Shown: positions 5,408 through 39,957 of the stretch, piece after piece
Numbering within the stretch: position 1 is the first letter of the stretch
Layout: each line of letters begins with the position of its first letter
Source: Desulfonatronovibrio magnus
GTDB taxonomy: Bacteria; Desulfobacterota; Desulfovibrionia; Desulfovibrionales; Desulfonatronovibrionaceae
Direction of reading: 5' to 3'
Length of the DNA stretch: 44,735 nt
Assembly (NCBI RefSeq): GCF_000934755.1
Contig: NZ_JYNP01000049.1
Coordinates: forward strand, 1-44,735
Notes under the pieces: generated by a model
Database searches by the model: none
Told to the model about the DNA's origin: nothing
The model's input: the letters and a program-made list of their open reading frames with translations, nothing else
Position numbers and translations under genes: made by a program

Positions 5408-5414
5408 CGGCCAT

Positions 5415-5510
5415 GGGAGATTAAGCATTTCTGAAAAGTCAATATAGGGGGGGCATTATGCGTTTCTGACAATTAGATAGGGGACAGTCCCGAAGCCAGG
5501 AACAGTCCCA
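5415..5510. mobile_element. Two nested, truncated copies of the GGGAGCATTACGCG inverted-repeat element
   Basis: Bases 5415-5446 resemble the terminal repeat followed by AAAAGTCAATA as at the left end of the copy at 19312. At 5447 a second terminus begins (GGGGGGCATTATGCG), followed by the TAGGGGACAGTCCCGAAGCCAGG core. Both copies lack their distal ends. The second runs directly into a CTTCAGC-type tandem repeat. Confidence 0.6.
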
Positions 5511-5518
5511 GCTCCAAT

Positions 5519-5578
5519 CCATTCTGCCTTCCTTCCGTCTTCAGCTTCCCACTTTCCGCTTTCAGCCTTCCACCTTCT
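5519..5578. repeat. Degenerate 7-8 bp tandem repeat (CTTCMGCTTTCC type)
   Basis: The stretch contains back-to-back degenerate units of the form CTTCC(G/A)(T/C)CTT and CTTCAGC, rich in pyrimidines on this strand. It lies between the truncated inverted-repeat elements and the stop codon of the radical SAM gene. Similar patches lie at 25764, 25917, 34567 and 40733. Confidence 0.6.
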
Positions 5579-9060: not shown

Positions 9061-9227
9061 GGGAGCATTACGCGTTTCTGAAAACTGTAAATTTGAATTG
9101 TATGTCATAGCTATTTTGGTAATAAAACCCGATTGTGACGGCTTGGCATGGCTTACAGCCCGGAGGTGGACTGTCCCTGGCTTCGGAACTGTTCCAAATT
9201 GACTTTTCAGAAACGCGTAGTGCTCCC
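9061..9227 (+). mobile_element. Inverted-terminal-repeat element, copy A (MITE-like, 167 bp)
   Basis: The left end GGGAGCATTACGCGTTTCTG at 9061 is mirrored at 9208-9227 as its reverse complement with one or two changes. The interior has the family-specific words GTCATAGCTATTTTGG and CCCGATTGTGACGGCTTGGC. The flanks carry AAGCAAT at 9051-9057 and 9228-9234, consistent with a decayed 10-bp target duplication (AAGCAATAAG against AAGCAATCCC). There is no coding capacity. Confidence 0.8.
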
Positions 9228-9446: not shown

Positions 9447-9471
9447 GATTTTTCAGAGACGTGTAATACTC
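9447..9471. mobile_element. Solitary terminus of the inverted-repeat element
   Basis: TTTTTCAGAGACGTGTAATA followed by CTCTC matches the right-hand terminus of the family at most positions. No matching left end is clear upstream. Core words of the family (GGGACAGTCCC) recur at about 9550 and 9640, so 9440-9680 seems to be debris of several copies. Confidence 0.5.
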
Positions 9472-9476
9472 TCTTA

Positions 9477-9520
9477 GAAGCTCCTCACCCGGGCTGGCCG
9501 GGACCGAACGTGTGAGTAAC
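9477..9520 (+). repeat. CACCCGGGC-GGACCG dispersed repeat, copy 1
   Basis: An AAGCTCCTCACCCGGGCTGG start followed by CCGGGACCGAACGTGTGAG closely matches copies at 13133-13176 and 25097-25140. A reverse-oriented relative lies at 24842-24905. Function unknown. Confidence 0.6.
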
Positions 9521-9747
9521 TTTACGAGTCTGTCACTTTTCTGGAAATTGGGACAGTCCCCGCGAGGTACTATAAAAAAGTTTGATGCTGCATTGGTCCC
9601 TGGAAGAAATTGGCTTTAATGACAAAATTTACACAGCGAGGGACAGTCCCTGTGCCAGGCTCAAAGTTCCAATCTTTGACGGAACTTTGCTGGCAAATGT
9701 GCATGAATCATAAGCAAAAATCATAAAAATGTGAAAATTGTAACCAT

Positions 9748-9775
9748 TTGAATTTATTAGCAAAACGATTATAGT
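9748..9775 (+). promoter_or_regulatory. Predicted sigma-70-type promoter carried on a repeat, upstream of the DHH gene
   Basis: TTGAAT (9748-9753) and TATAGT (9770-9775) are separated by 16 bases. The same arrangement with the same spacer length occurs at 13329-13356 upstream of the HU gene, and flanking sequence (GATTATAGTTRCTTGTAAG) is also shared. A transcript from here would run through the hairpin at 9783-9817 into the DHH gene. Confidence 0.5.
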
Positions 9776-9782
9776 TACTTGT

Positions 9783-9817
9783 AAGCTCCTCACCCGGGCT
9801 GGTCGGGTGAGGGGCTT
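9783..9817 (+). promoter_or_regulatory. Very stable hairpin in the DHH leader
   Basis: AAGCTCCTCACCCG (9783-9796) pairs with CGGGTGAGGGGCTT (9804-9817) over 14 pairs including one G-T wobble, leaving a 7-base loop. No T-run follows, so it is not an obvious intrinsic terminator. It lies between the predicted promoter and the DHH start codon and begins with the same bases as the CACCCGGGC repeat family. Confidence 0.65.
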
Positions 9818-9859
9818 CTGATGAAGTAAAGATATTAACTATATTAATGAGGTGTTCTG

Positions 9860-11957: not shown

Positions 11958-12007
11958 AATTTAATCGTCTTTTTTTACATGTTAAAGTGTCGCTGCAGTG
12001 TTAATAG

Positions 12008-12138
12008 AAGCATTACGCGTTTCTGAAAACTTTAATTTTGAGTTGAATGTCATAGCTATTTTGATGTAAAAACCCGATTATGTCGGCTGGGCACGGGGAC
12101 TGTCCCCTATTAACTTTTCAGAAACGCGTAATGCTCCC
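12008..12138 (+). mobile_element. Inverted-terminal-repeat element, copy B (MITE-like, 131 bp)
   Basis: The left end AAGCATTACGCGTTTCTG and right end CAGAAACGCGTAATGCTCCC are near-perfect inverted repeats. A perfect 10-bp direct repeat GTGTTAATAG lies immediately outside both ends (11998-12007 and 12139-12148), as expected for a target-site duplication. This copy has only one GGGACTGTCCC unit in its core, where copies C and D have two. Confidence 0.85.
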
Positions 12139-12310
12139 GTGTTAATAGTTGAAGAAAAAGATCATGGTTTCAAGTGTTCTAAGGCTGATGTTTTCTTCCG
12201 GGAGAAGCCGTTTATTGATTTTTCACTATACTGGTTTATTCGTTATCGGCTGATTTTTAAAAAAACTTTAGGTTTTTTTTGTAAAATCTTTTATTTTTTC
12301 TTTGGGGTGT

Positions 12311-13356: not shown

Positions 13357-13528
13357 TGCTTGTAAGTATGACCCGGAAGAGCCAGTTCCAGTGCAACATT
13401 CAAAGAGCTAAACAATTACCGATATAAATTTTTTTTAAGGTTAAATTCTTTTGTTGAATTTTTTGAGTTTATGAGTAAGATCTTTTCAGGAGAGAAGAAA
13501 TTTAAACGTTATGCAAAAGGAGTAAGAA

Positions 13529-13801: not shown

Positions 13802-13812
13802 AGTCATGGTAG

Positions 13813-13964
13813 CAGTTTAGCCCTTTGCTTGTGCAGCTATTTTTTGCCCTGAGGCAAAAGCAAGGAAGCAAGATGGTTTTGCAGGCACGTTAACTCGATG
13901 AAAATCATCGTTTTAAAGTAATCGTCAGGAAGAGTGTAGTTGCCATCCTGGAAGGGCTAAACTG
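13813..13964. repeat. CAGTTTAGCCCTT inverted-end element, copy 1
   Basis: CAGTTTAGCCCTT at 13813 is mirrored by AAGGGCTAAACTG ending at 13964. An inner TTTTGCC/GGCAAAA hairpin also lies within. No flanking direct repeat is evident. Related elements lie at 23292-23433 and 31901-32029. The element directly follows the HU gene and may also end its transcript. Confidence 0.6.
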
Positions 13965-14056
13965 ATACATATATTTTGATTCGCTCTAAAACAAGTTGAT
14001 TTCTTTACGAAAACAGCAGCATCAAATCCTTGCCCCCAAATACAACTTTGTCAGAA

Positions 14057-19311: not shown

Positions 19312-19462
19312 GGGAGCATTACGTGTTTCTGAAAAGTCAATAGGGGACAGTCCCGAAGCCAGGGACAGTCCCCGTGCCAGGCCGACACAATCGGGTTTTA
19401 ACATCAAAATAGCTATGACATTCAACTCAAAATTAAAGTTTTCAGAAACGCGCAATGCTACA
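19312..19462 (-). mobile_element. Inverted-terminal-repeat element, copy C (MITE-like, 151 bp, inverted orientation)
   Basis: The left end is GGGAGCATTACGTGTTTCTG and the right end is CAGAAACGCGCAATGCTACA. A perfect 11-bp direct repeat GTGCCTTGATT flanks both ends (19301-19311 and 19463-19473). Two GGGAC-T-GTCCC units separated by CGAAGCCA-type sequence lie in the core. Orientation is opposite to copies A, B and D. Confidence 0.88.
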
Positions 19463-31872: not shown

Positions 31873-31900
31873 TAATAGTCTAAGCTTAAATGTCATGTAA

Positions 31901-32029
31901 CAGTTTAGCCATTGGCATGTGGCATAGGGACTGGCTCTCTCAACCTTTGCTTTATTGAGACTGTTATTTTCGTCAGCGAAAAACAGGTTGGGTGGCCAGT
32001 CTCCTGCTTTCCTTAAATGCGCTGAACAG
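31901..32029. repeat. CAGTTTAGCCCTT inverted-end element, copy 3
   Basis: CAGTTTAGCCATTGGC at 31901 is mirrored less perfectly by GCGCTGAACAG ending at 32029. It shares ATAGGGACTGGCTCT and CCTGCTTTCC with the copy at 23292. It lies 28 bases after the dsrP stop codon. Confidence 0.55.
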
Positions 32030-32085
32030 ATACCCATATAGAGATGAAAGACTTTGCTCAGCAAGTCACATCATGTGTTTTTACA

Positions 32086-39801: not shown

Positions 39802-39807
39802 TGCATC

Positions 39808-39957
39808 AAGTCATTATGCGTTTCTGAAAACTGTAAATTTTTGTTGTATCTCATAGCTATTTTGGCTTTAAAATCCGATTGTGACGGCTTGGCACAGGGA
39901 CTGTCCCTGGCTTCGGGACTGTCCCCAGTTGATTTTTAAGAAACGCGTAATGCTCCC
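39808..39957 (+). mobile_element. Inverted-terminal-repeat element, copy D (MITE-like, about 150 bp)
   Basis: The left end (CATTATGCGTTTCTGAAAAC) lacks the first few bases of the consensus; the right end is AGAAACGCGTAATGCTCCC. The core has GCATTTTGG-like TAGCTATTTTGG, CCGATTGTGACGGCTTGGCA and two GGGACTGTCCC units. Possible target duplication is weak (ATGATGCATC against ATGATACAGT). It lies just after the dsrN stop codon. Confidence 0.78.

Follow-up and report, generated by a model that had tools for sequence, protein, structure and literature searches.

A miniature transposon family of Desulfonatronovibrio magnus whose ends and target duplications point to an ISKra4-family transposase

The short inverted-repeat elements dispersed through the genome of Desulfonatronovibrio magnus are non-autonomous transposons (MITEs), as follows from their copy number, their target duplications, the paralogous empty sites that carry a single target copy and the nesting of copies. 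We consider it highly probable (about 0.88) that they are moved in trans by a DDE transposase of the ISKra4 family, which another element provides. The first-pass annotation of this DNA had also proposed non-autonomous transposons moved in trans, a view that these four lines of evidence bear out, as does an insertion sequence with near-identical termini in another genome (G627). It had favoured an IS4-group transposase; that assignment is not supported here, since the duplications are mostly of 8 bp and at times of 9 bp, and the element whose ends match encodes a transposase of the ISKra4 family (Mutator superfamily).

The window, by which we mean the whole stretch of 44,735 nucleotides that was analysed (contig NZ_JYNP01000049.1), contains all four of the copies annotated previously, with the termini described for them, and two relics absent from the earlier list.

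9061–9227, minus strand: copy A, 167 bp, with one 15–16 bp inner unit
9061–9084, plus strand: left terminal inverted repeat of copy A, 24 bp, from an inverted-repeat search (arms 96% complementary)
9204–9227, minus strand: right terminal inverted repeat of copy A, 24 bp, from the same search (arms 96% complementary)
12006–12138, minus strand: copy B, 133 bp, with a shortened interior
19312–19462, plus strand: copy C, 151 bp
39807–39957, minus strand: copy D, 151 bp, left end eroded (6 mismatches)
5414–5520, plus strand: relic with two left-end-like stretches (5414 and 5449) and a partial interior, lacking a right end
9450–9473, minus strand: relic right end, 4 mismatches in 24, adjoining another repeat family

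The starts of copies A and C (9061 and 19312) stand as annotated, while those placed at 12008 and 39808 move to 12006 and 39807. The copies are too short to hold a transposase gene, in agreement with the earlier remark that they contain no open reading frame, and scans of the window with Rfam (gathering threshold) and for tRNAs gave no match. The left terminal repeat of copy A is perfect and the right one has a single mismatch. Its flanks (AAGCAATAAG and AAGCAATCCC) have AAGCAAT in common and match at 7 of 10 bases, the same count as before, so that there is no clean target duplication at its ends. Copy B is bounded by an 8-bp duplication, GTGTTAAT, at 11998–12005 and 12139–12146; the perfect 10-bp repeat previously read here includes an extra AG that is the eroded start of the element and, most simply, matches the right flank by chance. 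Copy C does have the perfect 11-bp flanking repeat attributed to it (GTGCCTTGATT), and the flanks of copy D match at 7 of 9 bases.

A search of the whole genome (4.81 Mb in 134 contigs), which the first-pass annotation had proposed as a check, recovered many further copies. When up to 3 mismatches were allowed, the 20-base terminus matched at least 95 times in each of the two directions, compared with 0 and 0 for the same terminus written backwards; copy A as the query gave at least 83 matches, many of which cover only the ends. The copies that we examined are loci chosen because they matched and do not constitute a full inventory of the genome. They are tabulated in 58 rows, comprising 56 copies and two outer or mispaired readings of nested copies, both of which were dropped for counts of 56.

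Among the copies examined, the elements are 113–222 bp long and have 24-bp terminal inverted repeats and no gene. Two length classes, 151–153 bp and 180–184 bp, account for 21 of the 58 rows each, and most of the length classes arise because an inner unit of 15–16 bp (CCTCCGGGCNGNAAG) is present 0, 1 (copy A) or 2 times per element. The most similar pairs of copies examined have 1 difference in 153 bases and 3 differences in 182. The interior contains GGGACAGTCCC palindromes. If transcribed, the element would form a long hairpin, largely from its terminal repeats; the predicted fold is −74.4 kcal/mol (z −11.4) for one copy (L005) and −68.6 kcal/mol (z −6.8) for copy A, and effects on neighbouring transcripts are possible. 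At L049 (3992–4292) a copy is interrupted inside by another hairpin repeat (GTCATTCCGTCGAAAGCCGGAATCCAG...). The terminus had no exact match in viral contigs.

We then compared the left and right flanks over the 58 rows. Mean identity at offsets of 5 to 12 bp was 0.252, 0.259, 0.286, 0.571, 0.364, 0.274, 0.282 and 0.267, respectively, and an offset of 8 bp gave 15 perfect flank repeats, 9 bp gave 3, 11 bp gave one and the other offsets gave none. The target duplication is thus 8 bp, sometimes 9 bp, and not 10–11 bp, though copy C has 11. A strong flank repeat, defined as a score of at least 5 when each match counts one and each mismatch costs three, was present in 24 of the 58 rows, or in 24 of 56 once the nested misreadings are set aside, compared with 0.36% of mispaired flanks; the remaining 34 rows, copies A and D included, lack one. 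This excess, with the number of termini relative to the backwards control, argues that the repeat family is not a product of chance. IS4-group elements make target duplications of 10–12 bp. We rejected an IS4-group origin because there is no excess at 10 or 12 bp, the perfect 11-mer at copy C is the single one, and an ISKra4 partner was found.

Empty sites were sought by joining the flanks of each copy through one copy of the duplication and comparing the product with the fetched loci. Three such sites with a single target copy were found, for L060 in L131 (95% identity over 61 bp), for L064 in L067 (91% over 65 bp) and for L014 in L055 (92% over 37 bp), the target in each of L131, L067 and L055 differing from that of the occupied site at 1 of 8 bases; a low-complexity empty site for L004 was found in L043. 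All of these are paralogous sites within the same genome rather than orthologous ones. The comparison with related genomes that had been suggested earlier was followed up at copy D, which starts 5 bp past the stop codon of a CobB/CobQ-type gene that is convergent with a methyltransferase gene. This gene pair is kept in four congeners (G001, G002, G003 and G005), in none of which is there an element end near the gap between the genes; the two protein matches are separated by 56, 127, 29 and 158 bp in the congeners compared with 176 bp where copy D is present. The intergenic stretch is unalignable between species, and so this comparison attests to absence and to gap length rather than to a base-level empty site.

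Copies also insert into one another; at L046 (4006–4156) one lies within another copy, with a 9-bp duplication (GTCCCGAAG). Only 6 of 56 copies lie in an open reading frame of at least 100 codons, compared with 67% of positions drawn at random from the same stretches. Targeting of promoters has been reported for part of the ISKra4 group. Among 111 flanks, scored by consensus counting only, there was no excess of promoter-like pairs reading outward at 10–20 bp; a small bump of element-facing pairs at 45–60 bp was noticed post hoc, and we make no claim on it.

The partner element came from a scan of 395 genomes of the phylum with a generalised terminus, in which G627, a member of another family (f54), had end pairs 2406–2415 bp apart. 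These delimit three complete elements with the ends GGGAGCATTACGCGTTTCT and GGGTGCATTACGCGTTTCT (in a longer reading, GGGAGCATTACGCGTTTCTAAAAA and GGGTGCATTACGCGTTTCTAGAAA), which agree with the MITE ends at 19 exact terminal bases at one end and at 18 of 19 at the other. Inside these 19 terminal bases there is no similarity between the G627 element and the MITE. Perfect 8-bp duplications flank two of the three (L214 and L216) and none flanks the third (L215). The 469-aa product of L216 is an ISKra4 transposase according to model NF033572 (246.7 bits, cut-off 205), and its gene is preceded in the element by a DruA gene (Pfam, E 1e-31 in L215). Of the 11 ends in G627, the 10 whose positions were examined form no short pair. 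The attributes of MITEs are thus all to be found here: inverted repeats lacking a transposase gene, a duplication of fixed length, paralogous single-target sites and, in G627, an autonomous element. According to excerpts of PMC3942029, the repeats of p-MULT elements measure 18–39 bp and carry a terminal C, and their target duplications are 8 or 9 bp long; the repeats here are 24 bp with 3' CCC, and the duplications 8, sometimes 9 bp.

Also in G627, inverted ISKra4-type ends lie 8.5 kb apart without a target duplication (L217, 903–9430), probably an ISKra4-type element with a large insert. DruA-domain genes (PF14236) occur both in the ISKra4 element (L215, 980–1873) and in an IS66-type element (L104, 1982–2851), and this Druantia-related domain looks like a recurrent insertion-sequence accessory; a literature search for DruA with insertion sequence, transposase or IS66 found no paper.

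A second f54 genome, G572, has six ends (GGGAGCATTACCGGTTTGT) at two mismatches, five of them 119–139 bp from the point where a contig begins. The ISKra4 model matched nothing in G572, but 33 aa read at one of these ends align with the C-terminal part of the G627 transposase (identity at 11 of 23 positions, E 2e-8); this looks like a related element broken by assembly. The ISKra4 model matched in 7 of 21 genomes, above the cut-off in two (G627 and G008), and in 2 of 14 control genomes, both below it. The genome of D. magnus itself gave no match in this profile search and 0 first-look candidates, a negative limited by the fact that, of the 20 small contigs sampled from it, sequence was available for 6. 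An insertion sequence sharing the termini, which the first-pass annotation had asked for, hence exists in another family of the phylum and was not found in the host's own genome. Within the window's own family, G006 and G009 carry ISKra4-like elements that start GGGTGCGG (GGGTGC...) and are flanked by duplications of 8 and 9 bp; their transposases score 157.6 and 182.8 bits, short of the curated cut-off, and we set these elements aside as direct partners because their inner termini differ. The end of an ISKra4 element in G308 is likewise GGGTGC followed by other bases. An ISKra4 element and MITEs with identical ends occur together in no genome examined. Outside D. magnus and f54, the phylum scan gave, among the matches listed, 26 in 24 genomes compared with 18 for the backwards control, and four of those loci examined closely showed no end pair.

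The ends and the 8-bp duplications lead us to think that an ISKra4-type enzyme, past or present and not found in this genome, most likely moved the copies here. By analogy with the published chemistry of the Mutator superfamily, such a transposase would bind the two 24-bp ends and release or copy the short element, which would then be inserted with an 8-bp (sometimes 9-bp) stagger, repair of the gaps giving rise to the flanking duplications.

Two other repeat families accompany the MITEs. A second family of miniature elements, whose ends are like GTATCTGTTTAGCGCTTT, is present in the window at 13809–13968 and 31897–32033 and as single ends at 13419 and 23288. It is nested in first-family copies at L041 and L056, with 8-bp repeats AAAGTTTT and TAAATTTT, and first-family copies are nested in it at L097 (with GTTTAGCG) and probably at L014. 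At its termini it is similar to the IS66-type element of L104, and no partner was found for it. A third repeat, of about 350 bp, lies at 9478–9826 of the window and at, for example, L033, L036, L052–L054, L063–L065, L069 and L070. The GGGACAGTCCC motif occurs in it twice, joined in some copies by the 15-bp CCTCCGGGC unit, and so the three repeat families share inner motifs.

An exact scan with the 20-mer, taking one genome per species and so possibly leaving out records near the host's own genome, gave 19 stretches, from Desulfonatronovibrio, Desulfonatronospira, Desulfonatronum, a Desulfovibrionales bin, one Desulfobulbaceae bin and a lone Nitrosomonadaceae. The last (L096) consists of one end only, lying 267 bp from the edge of a contig, and was dropped, about one chance match being expected by our own estimate. 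A scan of the class with up to 2 mismatches found the terminus in at least 11 of 297 genomes, D. magnus included, with G005, G143 and G191 represented by a single end only; the interior as query matched in 12 of 61 genomes. Twenty-one representative elements could be sorted by interior into six groups, none of them similar to another at E 1e-3: one in Desulfonatronovibrio and Desulfonatronospira, one in G037, one in G029 and G033, one in G049 (a single copy with no clear duplication) and two in G308, the Desulfobulbaceae bin, one of which sits under related ends (GGGTGCATTACGCGTTTGTT). Nor did any of the six resemble the interiors of the ISKra4 elements at E 1e-3. Constant ends therefore surround five unrelated interiors in different genera, and a sixth interior lies under related ends. 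A type II MITE, as defined in excerpts of PMC10969869, resembles its autonomous element in the terminal repeats only; since only the ends are common here, these are type II MITEs in those terms.

We entertain, as a speculation that we think unlikely, that these 20–24 bp ends, found across several families of the phylum, act as a mobile frame around at least five unrelated hairpin-rich interiors, and have spread to some 95 copies in a genome that has since lost the enzyme. If so, the elements would depend on transposases visiting by horizontal transfer, and the GGGACAGTCCC motif and 15-bp unit of the three repeat families would be functional host-derived cargo.

The absence of a detected ISKra4 transposase from the host genome could mean that the MITEs are moved by some other family with an 8–9 bp stagger (IS256, IS1, IS66 or ISL3, for example), the likeness to ISKra4 reflecting coincidence or convergence. 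IS66 elements make 8-bp duplications, and the genome has one IS66-type transposase gene, in a search that covered the IS66, ISKra4 and Y1 families only. We judge such a mover improbable, as an end match of 19/19 and 18/19 to three G627 elements, combined with equal duplication length, is not expected by chance. With regard to IS66 in particular, a degraded 149-bp first-family copy (L271, 833–981, 5 mismatches per end) lies near the host's IS66 gene but does not enclose it, and the IS66-type transposon of L104 has GTAACCG ends of its own, a first-family element (126–458) being inserted in one of them. IS66 was also rejected as a partner because the host's gene has no second-family ends within 5 mismatches and only the degraded first-family copy beside it. 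A first-family element thus lies beside or inside an IS66-type transposon in two genomes (L271 and L104), too few to judge against chance.

The GGGACAGTCCC palindromes in the interior, and the 10 Y1_Tnp matches in the genome, might instead suggest REP/BIME-like palindromes moved by REP-associated tyrosine transposases, to which the long inverted repeat would be secondary. We find this highly implausible: Y1 transposition leaves no target duplication whereas clear 8-bp duplications are present here, and the motif (up to 1 mismatch) is missing at 8 of the 10 Y1 loci, with one place each at the other two. Scarcely more credible is the view that these are intergenic elements beneficial to the host, serving as terminators, RNase III sites or binding sites for proteins, and maintained by selection rather than spread by transposition. 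The strong predicted hairpins and the intergenic bias would accord with it, but much of the fold comes from the terminal repeats themselves, and an intergenic bias would also follow from selection against the disruption of genes. Target duplications, empty paralogues and nesting would be left unexplained, and none of the four congeners examined has an element beside the gene pair that copy D adjoins.

With ISKra4-mediated movement as the preferred reading, a likely transposase family can be named for a repeat that is very abundant in haloalkaliphilic sulfate reducers. The closest known system is the ISKra4 family itself (p-MULT 4, Mutator superfamily), whose G627 member shares 19 and 18/19 end bases, the 8-bp duplication and the 5' GGG and 3' CCC with the MITEs; these differ from it in having no gene, in measuring 113–222 bp rather than 2.4 kb, and in showing no inner similarity to it. 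Literature searches for ISKra4 with non-autonomous, and for Desulfonatronovibrio with a MITE phrase, found nothing in a body of text that mostly excludes subscription papers. Correia elements of Neisseria have other termini and a TA duplication. Their size range is nevertheless similar and their copy number of the same order, to go by the sections of PMC10969869 that describe them. Type II MITEs, in the parts of the same review devoted to them, also resemble the elements here in their end-only likeness to an autonomous element, mostly intergenic location, high copy number and capacity to form hairpins, whereas here one terminus bounds several unrelated interiors in different genera; ISKra4 is nowhere named in the text of that review, and of two papers that mention both ISKra4 and MITE, PMC9208149 and PMC9021871, the former does not treat MITEs of ISKra4 in its excerpts. 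BrickBuilt, a MITE of Porphyromonas gingivalis (PMC4596501, in excerpt), similarly holds a short tandem repeat, a 23-bp minisatellite compared with the 15–16 bp unit in 0–2 copies here, and is likened by structure rather than by sequence. One terminus with many interiors bears on the origin of type II MITEs, and on interior capture rather than simple internal deletion as its route. This is thus an abundant family of a known kind, and what is unusual in it is a host with no visible transposase and the different interiors found under constant ends.
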